64,000 bases of DNA from Flavobacteriaceae bacterium (GTDB lineage: Bacteria; Bacteroidota; Bacteroidia; Flavobacteriales; Flavobacteriaceae). Every line of letters begins with the position of its first letter. Positions within the stretch are counted from its first letter, which is position 1. A program made the translations under genes and the position numbers. The DNA lies in the NCBI GenBank assembly GCA_027082925.1, contig JALWTD010000011.1, forward strand, positions 62,001 through 126,000. Direction: 5' to 3'. Shown here in pieces: positions 19,467 to 36,082 of this stretch. A model generated the notes under the pieces. The model did no database searches. It saw only the letters and a list, made by a program, of their open reading frames with translations, and had not been told where the DNA came from.

Positions 19467-19482
19467 TGTTTCACGTGGAACA
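19467..19482. other. parS-like palindrome (downstream of mnmG)
   Basis: TGTTTCACGTGGAACA differs at one position from the bacterial centromere consensus TGTTTCACGTGAAACA bound by ParB/Spo0J. It lies in the gap between mnmG and the methyltransferase gene. The match is seen directly; ParB binding is inference. Confidence 0.7.
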
Positions 19483-19489
19483 ATAAAAA

Positions 19490-21358
19490 TTATCTTCCCA
19501 TATAAACTAATAAAACCGAAATATCACTTGGAGAAACCCCACTTATTCTACTCGCTTGAGATATGGTTGTTGGTTGAATTTTTGTTAGTTTTTGTTTTGC
19601 TTCTATAGATAATGATTTTACTTTATTGTAATCAAAATTAGCAGGTATTTTAACATTTTCTAACCTATTTAATTTATCTGCCTGGTTTTTTTCTTTTTCA
19701 ATATAACCTGCGTACTTAACATGTATTTCAGTTTGTTCTACAATCTCGGTATCTATATTGTTTTCAGAAATAAACGTCGTTATTTTTGGTAAAACTTTAA
19801 TATCATTAAAACTTAATTGTGGTCTTGCTGCAATTTTAAACATCTTCATAGATTGATTTATTAAAGCAGTATTATTAGCCTCAAGAATAGGATTAATTTC
19901 CTCGGGTTTTACACTTAAGTCTTTTAAAAATTTTACAAATAAATCTGTTTTAACTTGCTTTTCTTCTACTCGTTTCATTCGCTCTTTAGAAGCTAATCCA
20001 ATTTTATAAGAAAGAGGTGTTAGTCGTAAATCGGCATTATCTTGACGTAATAACGTTCTATACTCAGCTCTTGAAGTAAACATTCTATAAGGCTCTTCTG
20101 TTCCTTTTGTAATTAAATCATCTATTAAAACACCAATATATGCTTCATTCCTTTTTAGTATAAATGGTGGCTTATTTGTAATATTTAACACTGCATTTAT
20201 ACCAGCCATTAAACCTTGTGCTGCAGCTTCTTCATAACCTGTTGTACCATTAATTTGACCTGCAAAATATAAATTCTTAATTCGTTTTGTTTCTAAGGTA
20301 TGCGTTAGTTGAGTGGGTGGAAAATAGTCGTATTCGATAGCGTATCCATATCTAAAAAATTTCACATTTTCAAATCCCGGTACTTTACGTAAAGCTTTAT
20401 CTTGAATATCATCAGGTAACGATGTAGAAAAACCATTTACATACACTTCAACAGTATCCCAACCTTCGGGTTCTACAAATAGTTGATGGCGCTCCTTAGA
20501 TGCAAATCTATCTATTTTATCTTCTATAGAAGGACAATAGCGAGGACCTATACTTTTAATTCTACCATTAAACATTGGAGACCTATCAAACCCTTCTCTT
20601 AGCAAATTATGCACTTCAATAGAAGTATAACTCATATAACAAGAACGTTGTTTTTGCAACGCTTTTGTTGTTGGTAAATATGAGAATTTAGCAGGTATTT
20701 CGTCTCCCGGTTGTTCAATCATTTTTGAATAATCTAACGACCTTCCATCAACTCTCGGAGGAGTACCTGTTTTCATTCTTCCTGCTTCAAAACCATATTT
20801 TACCAAATCTTCTGTAATTCCGGTCGAAGCACTTTCTCCTGCTCTTCCACCTCCAAAAGTTTTATCACCTATATGAATTAAGCCGTTTAAAAAAGTACCT
20901 GCAGTAATGATTACTGTTTTAGCTTTTATAGTAATTCCTAATGCTGTTTTAACTCCAACAATGATATTATTTTCAATCAGCAATCCATTAACCATATCTT
21001 GGTAAAAGTCTAAGTTTTTAGTCTGCTCCAACATCAATCTCCAACATTCTGAAAATCGCATACGGTCACTTTGAGCCCTTGGACTCCACATAGCAGGCCC
21101 TTTAGATTTATTCAACATCTTAAATTGAATCGCTGTTTTATCTGTTACGATACCACTGTAACCACCTAAAGCGTCAATCTCTCGAACTATTTGTCCTTTT
21201 GCAATACCTCCCATAGCAGGATTACAACTCATTTGAGCTATATTTTGTAAACTCATTGTAATGAGTAATGTTTTTCCGCCTAAATTAGCAGCCGCCGCTG
21301 CAGCTTCACTACCCGCATGACCTCCACCAACAACAATTACATCATACTGATTAAACAT
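19490..21358 (-). CDS. mnmG: tRNA uridine-5-carboxymethylaminomethyl modification enzyme MnmG (GidA)
   Basis: 622 residues, full length. With MnmE it installs the cmnm5 group at the wobble uridine of certain tRNAs. The FAD Rossmann motif VVGGGHAGSEAA is at the N-terminus, followed by MSCNPAMGGIAKGQIVREID (MnmG signature) and GTFLNGLIHIGDKTFGGGRAGE. The second signature, YFAGQINGTTGYEEAAAQGL, and the C-terminal helical MnmE-binding domain ending ISGVSPSDISVLLVYM are intact. The gene is flanked on both sides by CACGTG-centred palindromes resembling parS. mnmG is often near the replication origin in bacteria. Confidence 0.98.
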   Translation of the reverse strand: MFNQYDVIVVGGGHAGSEAAAAAANLGGKTLLITMSLQNIAQMSCNPAMGGIAKGQIVREIDALGGYSGIVTDKTAIQFKMLNKSKGPAMWSPRAQSDRMRFSECWRLMLEQTKNLDFYQDMVNGLLIENNIIVGVKTALGITIKAKTVIITAGTFLNGLIHIGDKTFGGGRAGESASTGITEDLVKYGFEAGRMKTGTPPRVDGRSLDYSKMIEQPGDEIPAKFSYLPTTKALQKQRSCYMSYTSIEVHNLLREGFDRSPMFNGRIKSIGPRYCPSIEDKIDRFASKERHQLFVEPEGWDTVEVYVNGFSTSLPDDIQDKALRKVPGFENVKFFRYGYAIEYDYFPPTQLTHTLETKRIKNLYFAGQINGTTGYEEAAAQGLMAGINAVLNITNKPPFILKRNEAYIGVLIDDLITKGTEEPYRMFTSRAEYRTLLRQDNADLRLTPLSYKIGLASKERMKRVEEKQVKTDLFVKFLKDLSVKPEEINPILEANNTALINQSMKMFKIAARPQLSFNDIKVLPKITTFISENNIDTEIVEQTEIHVKYAGYIEKEKNQADKLNRLENVKIPANFDYNKVKSLSIEAKQKLTKIQPTTISQASRISGVSPSDISVLLVYMGR

Positions 21359-21371
21359 ATCTTAATTTTTA

Positions 21372-21387
21372 TGTTCCACGTGGAACG
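21372..21387. other. parS-like palindrome (upstream of mnmG)
   Basis: TGTTCCACGTGGAACG contains a perfect 14-bp palindrome (GTTCCACGTGGAAC) and differs from the parS consensus TGTTnCACGTGAAACA at two positions. It lies in the 32-base gap between ybeY and mnmG, 1.9 kb from the first site. Confidence 0.65.
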
Positions 21388-28192: not shown

Positions 28193-28597
28193 CTATTGTT
28201 GCGGATATGGTGCTGATGGTGGGTTTCCCATAGTACCTAAATTTAAACCATCTATAGTTTCAACGTCTGACCCTCCTCCTGCTGCAGCTGTAGCAGATTT
28301 TTGAGTAGCAATATTACTTGTTGTAGGTACAAAAAATACAGTAGATAAATTATCGTTTTTTGGATTTATTATATCCTTAGCCGGATAAGCGCCAAAATAA
28401 ACTCGAAGACCATTCACAGAAATTCCTTGTGCTTTTGCTTCGCTTTCAATGTAAGCTATGTATTTTTTAATTTCATCTAAAGAAAACCAGCTAGATATAG
28501 CATCATCTTTATTAATTGCTTTGTTAATTGCTTTAGATCTTGTGTTGATAAAATTTTGATTTAATTCTTTCGCTCTTTTAGAAGATATTCTACTCAT
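28193..28597 (-). CDS. Uncharacterised 134-aa protein, Bacteroidota type
   Basis: 134 residues, soluble, with no signal peptide. The N-terminal half is helical and basic (SSKRAKELNQNFIN, then KAINKAINKDD). A central segment, ISSWFSLDEIKKYIAYIESE, precedes the core GLRVYFGAYPAKDI. The end is a low-complexity Ala/Gly/Pro tail (SATAAAGGGSDVET ... NPPSAPYPQQ). I do not know its function. It heads the run that leads through the membrane protein to the NarL-type kinase and regulator, so it may work with that system, but this is inference from position only. The start ATG at 28597 is unambiguous. Confidence 0.72.
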   Translation of the reverse strand: MSRISSKRAKELNQNFINTRSKAINKAINKDDAISSWFSLDEIKKYIAYIESEAKAQGISVNGLRVYFGAYPAKDIINPKNDNLSTVFFVPTTSNIATQKSATAAAGGGSDVETIDGLNLGTMGNPPSAPYPQQ

Positions 28598-29084: not shown

Positions 29085-30605
29085 ATGAATGATGTTAGAG
29101 TAAGATTTGCTCCTAGTCCTACAGGTCCTTTACATATTGGTGGTGTTAGAACCGCCTTATTTAATTATCTTTTTGCTAAAAAAAATAACGGTACTTTTAT
29201 TTTAAGAATAGAAGATACAGATCAAACCCGCTATGTGAAAAATGCAGAAAAATATATTGTTGATTCCTTGAATTGGTGTCATATTCCTTTTGATGAGGGT
29301 CCAAATGTAAATGAAAAATTTGGTCCTTACCGCCAATCTGAACGTAAATATTTATATAAAAAATTTGCCGATGAATTAATAGAAAAAGGAAAAGCATATT
29401 ATGCTTTTGACACTCCTGAAGAATTAGATTTACACCGAAAAAATCACGAAGAAAAAGGAAAAACATTTATTTATAATTGGCACAATAGAGAAAAATTAAC
29501 CAATTCAATTTCTCTATCAAAAGAAGAGGTTGAACAACGCATTACTAATGGCGATAAATATGTGGTTCGATTTAAAATGTATGATAAGAATCTCGATGAA
29601 ATTACTACAACCGATTTAATTCGTGGTCATGTATCTTTTAAAACCAATTTATTAGATGATAAAATCCTATTTAAAAGTGATGGAATGCCTACATATCATT
29701 TAGCAAATATTGTAGACGATCATTTAATGAAAATAACTCACGTAATTAGAGGGGAAGAATGGTTGCCTTCACTCCCACTTCATATTGCGTTATACCAAGC
29801 ATTTGGTTGGGACATACCTAAATTTGCTCATTTACCACTAATACTAAAACCTGTTGGTAAAGGAAAATTAAGTAAAAGAGATGGTGATAAACTTGGGTTT
29901 CCTGTGTTTCCTTTAGAGTATAAAAACGAAGAAAATAATGAAATTTCAAGAGGATATAAAGAGGATGGATATTTTCCTGAAGCATTTATTAATATGCTTG
30001 CTTTACTTGGTTGGAATCCTGGTACAAAGCAAGAACTCTTTTCTCTTGAAGAACTAATTCAAGCATTCGACTTAAGTAGAGTTAGTAAAAGTGGTGCTAA
30101 ATTTAATCCAGATAAAACAAAGTGGTTTAATCAACAATATATGTTGCAAAAACCTAACGAAGAATTGGCTTCGTTATTTGTTCCTATTTTAGAAGAAAAA
30201 GGAATTAAAGTTGATAAAACATATGTTGTAAAAGTAATTTCTTTAATAAAAGAAAGAGCTACTTTTGTAAGTGATTTTTGGGAATTAAGTAATTTCTTTT
30301 TTAAAGCTCCTGAAAAATATGATGAAAAAGCCGTTAAAAAGCAATGGAAAGAAAATACTCCTGACTTAATGCTTGAATTAATAACTATATTAACTAAAAT
30401 TGAAGTGTTTACTTCTAAAAATATAGAAACTGTTGTTAAAGAATGGATTACAAGTAAAGAAATAGGTTTTGGTAAAATAATGCAACCTTTTAGATTGAGT
30501 TTAGTAGGTGCTTTAAAAGGTCCTCACTTATTTGATATTGCAGAAATGATAACAAAAGAAGAAACTATTAAAAGAATTAAAACAGCTATCAATCACCTAG
30601 CTTAA
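29085..30605 (+). CDS. gltX: Glutamate--tRNA ligase
   Basis: 506 residues. This class I synthetase charges tRNA-Glu, and tRNA-Gln as well in organisms that use the amidotransferase route. VRFAPSPTGPLHIGGVRTA carries the HIGH motif and GKLSKRDGDKLG the KMSKS equivalent. Between them are the glutamate-binding RIEDTDQTRY and the HVIRGEEWLPSLP segments. The C-terminal anticodon-binding domain is complete. It forms a single-gene plus-strand unit with its own promoter box and terminator on each side. Confidence 0.98.
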   Translation: MNDVRVRFAPSPTGPLHIGGVRTALFNYLFAKKNNGTFILRIEDTDQTRYVKNAEKYIVDSLNWCHIPFDEGPNVNEKFGPYRQSERKYLYKKFADELIEKGKAYYAFDTPEELDLHRKNHEEKGKTFIYNWHNREKLTNSISLSKEEVEQRITNGDKYVVRFKMYDKNLDEITTTDLIRGHVSFKTNLLDDKILFKSDGMPTYHLANIVDDHLMKITHVIRGEEWLPSLPLHIALYQAFGWDIPKFAHLPLILKPVGKGKLSKRDGDKLGFPVFPLEYKNEENNEISRGYKEDGYFPEAFINMLALLGWNPGTKQELFSLEELIQAFDLSRVSKSGAKFNPDKTKWFNQQYMLQKPNEELASLFVPILEEKGIKVDKTYVVKVISLIKERATFVSDFWELSNFFFKAPEKYDEKAVKKQWKENTPDLMLELITILTKIEVFTSKNIETVVKEWITSKEIGFGKIMQPFRLSLVGALKGPHLFDIAEMITKEETIKRIKTAINHLA

Positions 30606-31666: not shown

Positions 31667-33877
31667 TTATTTACTAATCTTTTTTATAAGTGTAAAATCT
31701 AAGTGCTTACGTTCTAAATCTGTGTTTTTTACTTTTATTAAAACATAGTCACCTAACTGATAAATATTTTTAGTTGCTTGTCCAACTAGAGCATATTGTT
31801 TTTCATCAAAAATGTAGTAATCGTCTCTTATTTCACGTATTCTAACCATTCCTTCGCATTTATTTTCTATTATTTCAACATAAATACCCCACTCTGTTAC
31901 ACCTGAAATTACACCTTTAAATTCTTCATCTTGATGTTTTTGCATGTATTTAACTTGCATGTATTTTATTGAATCACGTTCTGCTTTGGTGGCTAACTGT
32001 TCCATTTCTGAAGCATGTTTACATTTTTCTTCGTATACAATAGCGTTTACAGATTTTCCACCATCTAAATAGTGCTGTAACAACCTATGTGTCATTACAT
32101 CAGGATAACGACGAATTGGTGATGTAAAATGGCTGTAATAATCAAAAGCTAATCCGTAATGGCCTATATTTTTAGTAGTATAAACAGCTTTACTCATAGT
32201 ACGTACTGCCAACGTTTCTATTAAATTAGCTTCTCCTTTTCCATGAACATCTTGTAATAATTTATTTAAAGATGAAGCTGTTGTTTTTTTATTTTTAGTA
32301 TCAATTTTATTTTTATAACCAAACTTACTTACAATGGTTTGTAAAGCTGTTATTTTTTCAATATCAGGTTCATCGTGTACTCTATAAATAAATGTTTTAT
32401 TTGTTGGTACTCCTTTATTACTTCCCACAAATTCAGCCACTCTCCTATTTGCTAAAAGCATAAATTCTTCAATTAGCTTATTTGCATCTTTAGATTCTTT
32501 AAAATAAACCCCAACAGGCTCATAATTTTTATCTAAATTAAATTTTACTTCTACTCTATCAAAAGTAATAGCGCCTTGTTGTAATCTTCTTTTTCTAAGT
32601 TTTTTAGCTAGCTCATCAAGTTTTACAATTGCAGATACTATTTTTAAATCAACAGTATATTCTTTACCGGTTAAAGAGTTGTTTGAAGAAATAGTTTGTA
32701 CTTTAGTTTCTATAATTTCTTGAGCTTCTTCGTAGCTAAATCGCTTATCAGAATACGTAATGGTTCTACCAAACCATTGTTTAACAACATGTGCTTTTTC
32801 ATTTATTTCAAAAATAGCTGAAAAAGTAAGTTTTTCTTCATTAGGACGAAGTGAACACACTCCATTTGATAAAACCTCGGGTAACATAGGTACCACCCTA
32901 TCAACTAAATAAACCGAAGTAGCTCTATTGTAAGCTTCTTCATCTAAAACTGATTTTTCCTGAACGTAATGTGACACATCTGCAATATGAATTCCTATTT
33001 CATAATTACCATTTTCAAGAGGTTTAAAAGATAAAGCATCATCAAAATCTTTAGCATCTTTTGGATCTATAGTAAACGTAGTTGTATCTCTTAAATCTCT
33101 CCTATTTTTAATTTCATCATCTGTTATTTTAGTAGGAATTTTTTTAGCAACATCTTCTACTTTACTAGGAAACTTATATGGTAAACCGTAATCTAATAAA
33201 ATAGAATGTATTTCTGTATGATGATCACCCGGCTTTCCTAAAACATCTATAACTTCTCCAAATGGGTTTTTAGAATTCTCGGGCCAATCTGTCATTTTTA
33301 CCAACACTTTATCACCGTCATTTGCTTTTTTAAATTTTCCTTTTGATATAAAAATATCGGTATACATTTTTTTATCATCAGGTATTACAAATCCGAAGTT
33401 TTTATTTATTTGTAGTACGCCTACAAATGTTGTTTTAGAACGTTTTATTATTTCAACTACATCTCCTTCTTCTCTACTATTTTTCTTTCTATTGTATAAA
33501 TAAATTTTTACAATATCATTATCTAATGCGTGGTTTAAATTTCTAGAAGGGATATATATATCGTGATCTAATTCATCACAAATAAAGTAAGCGTTTCCGT
33601 TAGATATTACATCTAAAGTACCTATATAATATTTTGAAAGTGGTATAATTTTAAACTTTCCTCTGGTTACTTCTTCTATTTTTTCCTCTAATTTTAAAGC
33701 TTCTAATTTTTTTATAATCTGATTTCTTCCATTAGCATCAGTAATAGCTAACTTAGAAGATATTTGTTTGTAGTTGAAACTTTTATTTGGAAACTGATTT
33801 AATAATTGAAGTATTTTTCGGGTTAAATCTTTAATAATATTTCCCTTTTTTTTATATAATTTTTTTCTTTTTGACAT
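31667..33877 (-). CDS. rnr: Ribonuclease R
   Basis: 736 residues. This 3'-to-5' exoribonuclease degrades structured RNA. An N-terminal winged-helix-like region precedes cold-shock domains (from about 70). The RNB catalytic domain carries DPKDAKDFDDALSF, whose aspartates bind magnesium, and later HIADVSHYV and HYGLAFDYYSHFTSPIRRYPD. A C-terminal S1 domain (GVISGVTEWGIYVEI) completes the order. The length suits the RNase R/VacB subfamily rather than RNase II. It is divergent from the lipid-kinase gene, with about 107 bases between them. Confidence 0.96.
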   Translation of the reverse strand: MSKRKKLYKKKGNIIKDLTRKILQLLNQFPNKSFNYKQISSKLAITDANGRNQIIKKLEALKLEEKIEEVTRGKFKIIPLSKYYIGTLDVISNGNAYFICDELDHDIYIPSRNLNHALDNDIVKIYLYNRKKNSREEGDVVEIIKRSKTTFVGVLQINKNFGFVIPDDKKMYTDIFISKGKFKKANDGDKVLVKMTDWPENSKNPFGEVIDVLGKPGDHHTEIHSILLDYGLPYKFPSKVEDVAKKIPTKITDDEIKNRRDLRDTTTFTIDPKDAKDFDDALSFKPLENGNYEIGIHIADVSHYVQEKSVLDEEAYNRATSVYLVDRVVPMLPEVLSNGVCSLRPNEEKLTFSAIFEINEKAHVVKQWFGRTITYSDKRFSYEEAQEIIETKVQTISSNNSLTGKEYTVDLKIVSAIVKLDELAKKLRKRRLQQGAITFDRVEVKFNLDKNYEPVGVYFKESKDANKLIEEFMLLANRRVAEFVGSNKGVPTNKTFIYRVHDEPDIEKITALQTIVSKFGYKNKIDTKNKKTTASSLNKLLQDVHGKGEANLIETLAVRTMSKAVYTTKNIGHYGLAFDYYSHFTSPIRRYPDVMTHRLLQHYLDGGKSVNAIVYEEKCKHASEMEQLATKAERDSIKYMQVKYMQKHQDEEFKGVISGVTEWGIYVEIIENKCEGMVRIREIRDDYYIFDEKQYALVGQATKNIYQLGDYVLIKVKNTDLERKHLDFTLIKKISK

Positions 33878-33984: not shown

Positions 33985-34899
33985 ATGGTAAATAAATGGT
34001 TTGTAATTATTAATCCTACTTCAGGAAATAATGCGGCAACTAAAAACTGGGAAAATATTTACAACGAATTAAAATCACAAGGTTTTAACTTTGAATTTAA
34101 ATTTACAGAATATAAAAATCACTCTATAAAATTAGTACAAAATGCTATAAATAAAGGTTTCACAAAATTTATTTGTGTTGGAGGAGATGGTACTTTACAC
34201 AATATTGTAAATGGTGTTTTAAAAACAAAAAGCAATTTAATAGCTAATGTAATAATTGGTATTATACCTATTGGAACCGGTAACGATTGGGTTAAAACAT
34301 ATGCTATTTCTAACAATATAAAAGAAGCAGTACTTACTATTAAAAATAAAAAAATATTTAAGCAGGATATTGGTAGAATTTATATAGAATCAGAAAATAA
34401 AGAAGTATTTTTTAACAATTTAGCCGGTGTTGGATTTGATGGTTACGTAGTTAATAACATTATTAAATATAAAAAATTAGGTTCATTAGCTTACATTATT
34501 GCAGCGCTTGTAGGTATATTTAAGTTTAAAAGAAGTCTTTTACATATTGAGTTTAATAACAGTATTGTTAAAGAAAAAACTTTAATGCTTCTTATAGGTT
34601 TATGTAAATATTCAGGAGGAGGAATGCAGTTAACTAAAAATCCTTCTTTAAATGACGGATTATTTGATATTACCTTTATTAAAAAAATTACATTTTTTAC
34701 ACTTATAAAAAATATTAGAAATATTTTTAATGGTCATTTAACAAATCATAAACTTGTTAAAACCTATAAAACTTCAAAAATTACCGTAAAAAATTTAGAT
34801 ACCAAAAATGTATTTATTCAGGCTGATGGAGAACTGGTAGGTACTCATAATTTTACGGTAACAATACTTCCTGAAAAATTAAATTTTATAGTAAATTAA
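33985..34899 (+). CDS. Diacylglycerol/lipid kinase (DagK/YegS family)
   Basis: 304 residues. The NAD-kinase-like catalytic domain starts with WFVIINPTSGN, carries the nucleotide-binding GGDGTLHNIVNG and the IIPIGTGNDW motif, and continues into the beta-sandwich C-terminal domain with FIQADGEL. This family phosphorylates diacylglycerol or similar lipids, feeding phosphatidic acid into phospholipid synthesis. Whether it acts on diacylglycerol or another lipid cannot be settled from sequence. It starts the predominantly plus-strand half of the window and ends 26 bases before an ECF-type promoter. Confidence 0.9.
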   Translation: MVNKWFVIINPTSGNNAATKNWENIYNELKSQGFNFEFKFTEYKNHSIKLVQNAINKGFTKFICVGGDGTLHNIVNGVLKTKSNLIANVIIGIIPIGTGNDWVKTYAISNNIKEAVLTIKNKKIFKQDIGRIYIESENKEVFFNNLAGVGFDGYVVNNIIKYKKLGSLAYIIAALVGIFKFKRSLLHIEFNNSIVKEKTLMLLIGLCKYSGGGMQLTKNPSLNDGLFDITFIKKITFFTLIKNIRNIFNGHLTNHKLVKTYKTSKITVKNLDTKNVFIQADGELVGTHNFTVTILPEKLNFIVN

Positions 34900-34925
34900 A
34901 AATGTTAAAATTTTCTTAATATAAT

Positions 34926-34951
34926 TGTAACAACTACCTAAATACATCGTC
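34926..34951 (+). promoter_or_regulatory. Putative ECF-sigma-type promoter
   Basis: TGTAAC at 34926-34931 and CGTC at 34948-34951 are separated by 16 bases. This matches the GTAAC/CGTC pattern used by extracytoplasmic-function sigma factors and is unlike the TAnnTTTG boxes elsewhere in the window. It lies 24 bases ahead of a small membrane peptide frame. Confidence 0.45.
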
Positions 34952-34974
34952 TTTATAATAACTATCTACCTGTT

Positions 34975-35133
34975 ATGAATCGATTGTATAAAATAATCTT
35001 ATTTTTCATCTTTATTTTTATTCTAGGAATTTTTTTTTCTATTAAAGGTATTAACGCTGCATTTAACACAACAAATACACCTAATACTATTTCTTATAAT
35101 ATTTTAAAAAATATACATAAAGTTAGTTATTAA
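34975..35133 (+). CDS. Possible 52-aa membrane peptide under an ECF-type promoter
   Basis: A 52-codon frame, MNRLYKIILFFIFIFILGIF then a polar Thr/Asn-rich tail (NAAFNTTNTPNTISYN) ending HKVSY. One hydrophobic helix with two basic residues before it suggests a membrane-inserted or weakly secreted peptide. The short gap from the ECF-like promoter would give a leader of under 20 bases. Codon use is as AT-rich as the surroundings. I know of no family. It is a candidate for a stress-induced small membrane protein, but evidence for translation is only circumstantial. Confidence 0.42.
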   Translation: MNRLYKIILFFIFIFILGIFFSIKGINAAFNTTNTPNTISYNILKNIHKVSY

Positions 35134-35575
35134 CACTAATTAATATAATAAAGAAAATATATTTTTAAATTAAAAAAATATGATTGTTATTATATAGTGT
35201 TAATATCTACAATAAATTTTTAGCTATTGATTTGTATTTGTCATTTATCAATACTTATTAACACTTTTTTAAAAAGTAATAAGTTAAAAATCAATATAGA
35301 TATGGTAGTTATTAACATAATTTTAGATTACATAATTCACATTAAATTTTAATAAAAAAAAATTAATATTTGTTTATAACCTATTAAATATTTGTTTAAA
35401 ACTTCTTCTTAAAAAGGAATAAAAAAATTTGCGTATTAACTACTAATTTTTGTAATAGATAATTTTATTTAATTATCAAAAAATAGTTTTAAATTTTAAC
35501 TATAAAATTATTCACATTATGTATAAAATCTAATCTTACTGAAAATCAATACTTTGTATAAAAATATTAACAATG
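35120..35575. other. AT-rich gene-free region, candidate chromosomal replication origin
   Basis: About 450 bases without a gene. One exact DnaA box, TTATTCACA, is at 35508-35516. TTATTAACA, one mismatch from it, occurs at 35127-35135, 35255-35263 and 35309-35317. Related sequences lie at 35197-35205 (GTGTTAATA, reverse) and 35565-35572 (TATTAACA), and TAATTCACA at 35333-35341. Long A/T tracts (around 35341-35400) could serve as an unwinding element. The predominant coding strand changes here. The parts are seen directly; origin function is inference, and AT-rich DNA produces such matches by chance. Confidence 0.4.
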
Positions 35576-35606
35576 GTATTTTTATATGTTAATAGTATTG
35601 AATTTG

Positions 35607-35614
35607 TACTTTTG
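35607..35614 (+). promoter_or_regulatory. Putative -7 promoter box for rpiB
   Basis: TACTTTTG, an exact TAnnTTTG match, 30 bases before the ATG at 35645. It lies inside the possible longer reading frame from 35573, which argues that the shorter start is correct. Confidence 0.6.
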
Positions 35615-35644
35615 TACTTTATAATATATAAAATAATATACGTA

Positions 35645-36082
35645 ATGGTAATAGCAATTGGAAATGATCATGCAGGAACAAATTATAAATTTGAAATTGT
35701 AAAACATTTAGAGCATAAAGGATTTACAGTTTTAAATTTTGGAACCGACACTACAGATAGTATGGATTATCCAGATACAATTCATTTAGTAGCAAATGCA
35801 GTTGAAAATAATGAAGCAACTTTTGGAATTATTTTATGCGGAAGTGGTAATGGTGCACAAATTACAGCAAATAAACATCAAAAAATTAGAGCAGCTTTAT
35901 GTTGGAATAATGAATTAGTAGAATTAGCTAGGTTACACAACAATGCTAATATTTTAAGTATTCCTGCTAGATTTGTTTCTTTACATCAAGCACTTCATTT
36001 TGTAGATATATTTTTAAACACATCGTTTGAAGGAGGTAGACACCAAAAAAGAGTCGCTAAAATTCCTGTAAAATGTAATTAA
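35645..36082 (+). CDS. rpiB: Ribose-5-phosphate isomerase B
   Basis: 145 residues from the ATG at 35645 (MVIAIGNDHAGTNYKFEI). An upstream ATG at 35573 would add 24 hydrophobic residues not found in the family and would place the promoter inside the gene. RpiB interconverts ribose-5-phosphate and ribulose-5-phosphate. GNDHAG opens the active site, DYPDTIHLVA follows, and GIILCGSGNGAQITANKH holds the catalytic Cys and the anion hole. NNANILSIPARF completes the signature. It begins a tight plus-strand run with the cation transporter and GNAT genes. Confidence 0.95.
   Translation: MVIAIGNDHAGTNYKFEIVKHLEHKGFTVLNFGTDTTDSMDYPDTIHLVANAVENNEATFGIILCGSGNGAQITANKHQKIRAALCWNNELVELARLHNNANILSIPARFVSLHQALHFVDIFLNTSFEGGRHQKRVAKIPVKCN

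Follow-up and report, generated by a model that had tools for sequence, protein, structure and literature searches.

A probable chromosomal replication origin in the AT-rich gap upstream of rpiB in a marine Flavobacteriaceae bacterium

Genomic context of the candidate origin

The AT-rich intergenic gap between yegS and rpiB is very probably oriC, the bidirectional chromosomal replication origin, of a marine bacterium of the family Flavobacteriaceae that falls within the genus holding Lutibacter. Judged by RpiB, Lutibacter litoralis and a Lutibacter MAG are the closest named relatives of this bacterium. An earlier note on this DNA had proposed an origin in this gap, and the proposal was supported by the enrichment of DnaA boxes, the position of the gap in a GC-skew switch zone, the fixed spacing of the boxes and the proximity of parS sites, the last two lending independent support to the origin reading. 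The window referred to below is the whole 64-kb stretch analysed, i.e., bases 62001-126000 of the 200,163-bp contig C11, and belongs to a draft genome of 2.47 Mb in 21 unordered contigs. The coordinates of all features are compiled in Table 1.

No ORF of at least 80 aa was found inside the gap, barring a 5' extension of rpiB from 35573, and an Rfam scan of the window yielded zero families at the gathering score. To the right, rpiB is followed by recA; to the left, rnr is situated beyond yegS, gltX lies ~5 kb and mnmG ~14 kb from the gap. When gene neighbours were counted in 62 named loci of relatives, each longer than 15 kb, yegS was present in just 10, and rnr in 47, in 43 of which it lay 2.5-6.8 kb upstream of rpiB and was encoded on the minus strand.

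Table 1. Features of the predicted origin region (window coordinates; fractions refer to aligned congeneric loci).
Feature	Position	Strand	Details
parS (predicted), GTTTCACGTGGAAC, downstream of mnmG	19468..19481	.	
mnmG (gidA)	19490..21358	-	PF01134, 3.9e-162
parS (predicted), GTTCCACGTGGAAC, upstream of mnmG	21373..21386	.	
Glutamyl-tRNA synthetase (gltX)	29085..30605	+	PF00749 + PF19269
rnr-like RNB exoribonuclease, divergent from rpiB	31667..33877	-	PF00773
YegS/diacylglycerol-kinase-like gene	33985..34899	+	PF00781 + PF19279
Gap between yegS and rpiB, probable oriC	34900..35644	.	745 bp, GC ~0.16
Candidate unwinding element (100-bp stability minimum of window)	35095..35194	.	Nearest-neighbour scan; putative role
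DnaA box 1 (predicted), TTATTAACA	35127..35135	+	TTATNMACA in 30/30
DnaA-box-like site 2, ATATTAACA	35198..35206	-	Exact 7/30; <=1 mismatch 27/30
DnaA-box-like site 3, TTATTAACA, poorly conserved	35255..35263	+	Exact 1/30; <=1 mismatch 23/30
DnaA box 4 (predicted), TTATTAACA	35309..35317	+	TTATNMACA in 30/30
DnaA box 5 (predicted), TTATAAACA	35371..35379	-	TTATNMACA in 28/30
DnaA box 7 (predicted), classical type TTATTCACA	35508..35516	+	TTATNMACA in 27/30
Site 8, ATATTAACA (genus consensus CTATTAACA, 26/30)	35564..35572	+	Exact 1/30; <=1 mismatch 28/30
Site 9, CTATTAACA (genus consensus TTATTAACA)	35587..35595	-	Exact 20/30; <=1 mismatch 30/30
rpiB, ribose-5-phosphate isomerase B	35645..36082	+	PF02502, 9.6e-55

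DnaA boxes and duplex stability in the gap

The exact DnaA box TTATTCACA that the earlier note had placed at 35508 is indeed there and occurs once in the window. The three copies of TTATTAACA named alongside it were also found, out of five in the window; the copies at 35127 and 35309 are kept throughout the aligned congeneric loci, but the one at 35255 is not (Table 1). Within the gap, four matches to TTAT[TC][AC]ACA were counted against a shuffle mean of 0.21, and six matches to TATTAACA against a mean of 0.36, counts that none of 2000 dinucleotide shuffles reached in either case. By itself, TTATNCACA was represented in the gap by a single copy, which is not significant (129 of 2000 shuffles reached 1). 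The window contains seven TTAT[TC][AC]ACA boxes in all, four of them in the rpiB gap and the others scattered. The 14 other gaps of the contig with a length of at least 100 bp and a GC content of at most 0.22 held one such box in a total of 2371 bp, and all other contig gaps pooled held seven in 9852 bp, three of these within one 233-bp gap. A box frequency no higher than in comparable gaps had been named as grounds for dropping the proposal; the frequency in the rpiB gap was far higher. The gap thus bears a cluster of DnaA-like boxes beyond chance, as is expected of a DnaA-dependent oriC, and these form an array of ~470 bp with fixed spacing and boxes on both strands.

Regarding duplex stability, a nearest-neighbour scan located the stability minima of the window for segments of 100, 300, and 600 bp at 35095-35194, 35093-35392, and 35040-35639, i.e., all in the gap or nearly so, and an AT-rich, easily unwound segment of the kind required at an oriC is accordingly predicted there. 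The least stable 100 bp overlap box 1 and would be the best candidate for the unwinding site. The block closest to rpiB (35530-35615) shows strong conservation. It includes TACTTTTG at 35607-35614, which we take to fit the Bacteroidota -7 promoter motif, and the rpiB promoter may for this reason overlap the right end of the origin.

Conservation of the box array within and beyond the genus

An RpiB match was obtained in 35 congeneric genomes, and the rpiB-upstream loci of 30 of them were aligned. Among 1352 aligned 9-mer positions/strands, just six carried a box in at least 10 of the 30 loci, namely 35127, 35309, 35371, 35508, 35587, and 35624. The last of these holds a box in 12 of 30 loci and none in the window; at 35587 the window carries a variant, the pattern TTATNMACA being present in 20 of 30 loci. 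A whole-genome search for boxes 1, 4, and 5 at their observed spacing returned a single match per genome in 32 of 38 congeneric genomes and zero with reversed controls, and all 32 matches were on the strand of rpiB, 207-269 bp before the rpiB match. The pattern was missing in six of the 38 genomes, three of which have rpiB (G002, G016, and G030) and three of which gave no rpiB match. A stricter three-box pattern that includes box 7 was recovered from 2 of 199 family genomes, which were the two congeneric members of that sample, and from 0 of the 197 others. Box positions are thus conserved inside the genus, and the exact pattern is absent from the 197 genomes of other genera.

For the wider Bacteroidota, 80 named loci were retrieved and 63 were kept for box counts (rpiB start read as ATG, length of at least 10 kb). 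Together, these contained 143 boxes in the 800 bp upstream of rpiB, where 7.6 would be expected judging from the remaining 800-bp windows of these loci and 9.3 judging from shuffles. The rpiB-upstream segment was the box-richest 800-bp window in 41 of the 63 loci and tied in 10; in 8 of the 63 it contained zero boxes. Aquimarina agarivorans is one locus with a boxless rpiB-upstream segment, yet another of its 800-bp windows has five boxes. Among the examined pieces of four single-contig genomes from other genera, the densest box cluster was situated at rpiB in G107 and G195 (three boxes in 1.2 kb), the rpiB cluster was not distinct in G161 (two boxes, equalled at other places), and in G097 the densest cluster comprised five boxes within 1.1 kb, situated ~2 kb downstream of rpiB (G097:C1:1646048-1647115, L245), perhaps reflecting a shifted origin in that genus. 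Beyond the genus the array is thus thinner or displaced, and we claim the exact origin site for the genus holding Lutibacter, not for the whole family.

GC skew and coding strand

Skew was measured at fourfold-degenerate sites because plain GC skew tracks coding direction; plain GC skew over sampled stretches of G010 was dropped as too noisy. In three single-contig relatives of the same genus, the fourfold skew changed from minus to plus in a zone that holds rpiB: 1.80-2.10 Mb in G010 (rpiB at 1.924), 2.2-2.6 Mb in G027 (rpiB at 2.599, at the zone edge), and 2.6-3.0 Mb in G026 (rpiB at 2.910). The reverse switch was found about half a genome away, at ~0.5, 0.6-0.8, and 1.0-1.2 Mb, respectively. 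In G010, for which 40 stretches totalling 600 kb were sampled, the skew was minus in 19 of 19 stretches between 0.53 and 1.88 Mb; outside that range it was plus in 20 of 21 stretches, with weak mixed values between 1.88 and 2.03 Mb (-0.07, +0.06, +0.10, -0.07, +0.02, +0.07). With 400 kb sampled in each of the other two, it was minus at 2.2 Mb, about zero at 2.40 and 2.58 Mb, and plus at 2.6 Mb in G027, and minus at 2.6 Mb, about zero at 2.8 Mb, and plus at 3.0 Mb in G026.

On the contig under study, ten-kb bins were minus in eight of nine to the left of the gap bin and plus in nine of ten to its right. The cumulative fourfold skew formed a shallow trough (-180 to -198) at about 25-46 kb of the window, its lowest value lying at 44.8-46.4 kb, ~9 kb to the right of the gap. 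A skew minimum far from the gap had been named in advance as a finding that would speak against the proposal; both this trough and the switch zones of the three relatives agree with it. The minus-to-plus switch that marks an oriC was found at a resolution of some 50-100 kb at best, and skew alone gives no discrimination of the rpiB gap from mnmG or gltX.

For other genera, the analysis drew on 25 of the single-contig family genomes, those with a reported rpiB position, 10 of them for skew at the rpiB flanks and antipodes and 4 for the interval between mnmG and rpiB. In the 10 genomes, each of a different genus, 19 of the 20 stretches 150 kb either side of rpiB had the expected sign, 13 of them reaching a z of at least 2, and the lone contrary stretch was from G058 (z -3.0). 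The antipodal stretches of the same genomes had the expected sign in 15 of 20 and the contrary sign in 5. In G097, G107, G161, and G195, mnmG and rpiB are 51-55 kb apart, and the pooled fourfold skew from mnmG to rpiB was +0.009, +0.135, and +0.164, with genes nearly all on the minus strand; the flank on the mnmG side had a pooled skew of +0.077 and was positive in three of the four. A sign change inside the interval was seen in G097 only (-0.12, +0.01, +0.21). Taken at face value, these numbers would, for three of the four genera, point to an origin at mnmG or to its left. The interval skew is apparently biased upward because minus-strand genes dominate there, as the sense-strand fourfold values suggest.

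The switch in coding strand, on which the earlier note had leaned, is roughly as described (counted by hand, ~26 kb minus and 5 kb plus on the left, ~17-18 kb plus and 8.7 kb minus on the right), but it is a weak argument, since only 46% of the sampled coding bases of G010 run with the predicted fork; the values for G027 and G026 are 64% and 59%. Head-on coding bases accordingly amount to 54% in G010 (L112-L131, L179-L198) versus 36% and 41% in G027 and G026.

parS sites and dnaA

A predicted parS pair flanks mnmG at a distance of ~1.9 kb from each other and 14 kb from the gap. The motif GTTYCACGTGRAAC was detected in 37 of 38 congeneric genomes, with exactly two copies in 34, and reversed controls gave 0. 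An earlier parS pattern allowing at most two mismatches had missed G027 and was replaced, its matches in G026 being non-palindromic and the controls equally many. The two sites lie 1.8-1.9 kb apart in 35 of 38 congeneric genomes, and from this spacing mnmG is probably located between them there too. In all 25 congeneric genomes with both elements on one contig, rpiB and parS are separated by 11.0-38.5 kb. All 25 single-contig genomes of the other genera carried the motif, 24 of them with two sites separated by 1.9-2.4 kb, and in the 24 genomes that were measured parS and rpiB were 6.0-55.4 kb apart. In the one left out, G062, the region crosses the start of the record (with rpiB at 3.533 Mb, parS at 16 and 18 kb, and a length of ~3.5 Mb), and the distances exclude some extra copies, such as that at 2683862 in G157. 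The parS sites were located 5' of rpiB in 24 of 25 congeneric and 23 of 24 other-genus genomes. The proximity of parS expected of an oriC was thus found, within tens of kb, and the parS pair around mnmG may be the reason why this gene serves as an origin indicator.

The gene for the initiator protein DnaA often marks replication origins. As the earlier note had stated, dnaA is absent from the window; its single match genome-wide lies on contig C17, and the DnaA on which such an origin depends is thus encoded. The expectation that the origin would not be linked to dnaA also held in the relatives: dnaA is located at base 1 of records G010, G026, and G027, and its distance from rpiB is 1.04, 1.12, and 1.33 Mb, respectively, if the contigs are closed circles. 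The candidate is therefore not a dnaA-linked oriC with dnaA next to it. Domain IV of this DnaA aligns with E. coli 1J1V, the recognition segment reading KRDHATVLHA versus GRDHTTVLHA, and the Ala/Thr residue of RDHA/RDHT presumably helps to read the DnaA box.

Proposed mechanism and comparison with known origins

In the mechanism that we propose, DnaA made at a distant locus would bind the classical box TTATTCACA at 35508, would also fill the fixed-spacing TTATNAACA-type boxes on both strands, and would oligomerise. The arrangement suggests that TTATTCACA is a strong anchor and that the TTATNAACA boxes are weaker sites filled cooperatively. The DnaA oligomer would then open the unusually unstable DNA around the boxes, presumably near box 1, after which the helicase would be loaded and forks would depart both ways. 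The parS pair at mnmG, 14 kb to the left, would mark the origin region for segregation driven by ParB. A broader version of this reading holds that the preference of DnaA shifted family-wide from TTATNCACA to TTATNAACA with the Thr-to-Ala change (RDHT to RDHA), that the classical box persists as the anchor of a rigid array, and that the rpiB gap is the ancestral origin of much of the family, apart from the parS centromere at mnmG. We put this version forward tentatively and consider it rather doubtful as a whole; its family-wide part is weakened because 8 of 63 loci are boxless and the G161 cluster is not distinct.

The origin of E. coli is an AT-rich gap with DnaA boxes on both strands, is not beside dnaA, and has mnmG (gidA) in its region. 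The rpiB gap resembles it in all of these respects, but most of its conserved boxes have A, not C, at position 6. Origins of the Bacillus subtilis type are situated at dnaA and have parS near the origin. The rpiB gap likewise has parS close by, but in the three single-contig relatives more than 1 Mb separates rpiB from dnaA.

Published predictions for Flavobacteriaceae point to the same neighbourhood. In the pertinent sections of the respective reports, oriC is predicted beside mnmG in Mariniflexile litorale (PMC11278836) and Algorimicrobium (PMC12843772) and beside gltX in Flavobacterium enshiense (PMC9867689), in agreement with GC skew according to those reports. The text of PMC11278836 describes dnaA as out of line with the skew plot, and one of its figure legends, contradicting that text, assigns ter to mnmG and oriC to dnaA. 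For Tenacibaculum, sections of PMC4759079 and PMC9864904 describe the application of Ori-Finder and state no position for the origin. As far as these passages go, the published predictions name a nearby gene, whereas here the box array is placed in the rpiB gap and mnmG is found flanked by a parS pair. Our search of the open literature found no paper naming the rpiB gap as oriC or mapping these boxes. Flavobacterial origins had thus already been placed near mnmG or gltX, and the probable precise site in the rpiB gap is what is added here.

This location matters for sequence records. The three closed congeneric records examined start at dnaA, over 1 Mb away from the predicted origin, and taking base 1 as the origin would therefore make coverage-based growth-rate estimates, replichore maps, and strand-bias studies wrong for such records. 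A base-exact map of conserved boxes makes a flavobacterial origin directly testable, and the prevalence of boxes with A at position 6 provides a testable hypothesis on DnaA specificity.

Alternative explanations and other box clusters

The most serious alternative is that the true origin lies at mnmG or gltX and that the rpiB gap is a neighbouring DnaA-binding region. It can draw on the published flavobacterial predictions, which in the sections concerned favour mnmG (PMC11278836, PMC12843772) and gltX (PMC9867689), and on the skew of the mnmG-rpiB interval, which in the four genera has mostly the sign of the rpiB side, the genes there being nearly all on one strand. We nevertheless consider it improbable. 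The gaps beside mnmG measure 60 and 32 bp and contain parS and zero boxes, and the 487-bp gap before gltX is also devoid of boxes, the nearest one being at 28543, whereas four of the seven boxes of the window are in the rpiB gap, in an array of conserved spacing.

That extent and regularity (~470 bp with fixed spacing), together with the position of the array within the skew-switch zone and near parS, also make it very unlikely that the boxes are operators through which DnaA or another regulator controls transcription of rpiB or yegS with no origin role, a reading to which the TACTTTTG-containing conserved block near rpiB would otherwise lend itself. Least credible of all is a chance cluster in highly AT-rich DNA: the lack of significance of TTATNCACA alone and the unconserved copy at 35255 speak for such a cluster, but no shuffle out of 2000 matched the observed count, and the spacing is common to 32 of 38 congeneric genomes. 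The rpiB gap as oriC remains our preferred reading.

A second cluster of TTATTAACA is present on the same contig, with four copies in ~210 bp on both strands (C11 31814-32024; L173 11814-12024). It was rejected as a conserved origin, its paired arrangement occurring in 1 of 38 congeneric genomes. Three of its four copies are situated in the gap before the gene for a 1561-aa protein, which by eye resembles a secreted metallopeptidase with fibronectin-like repeats.
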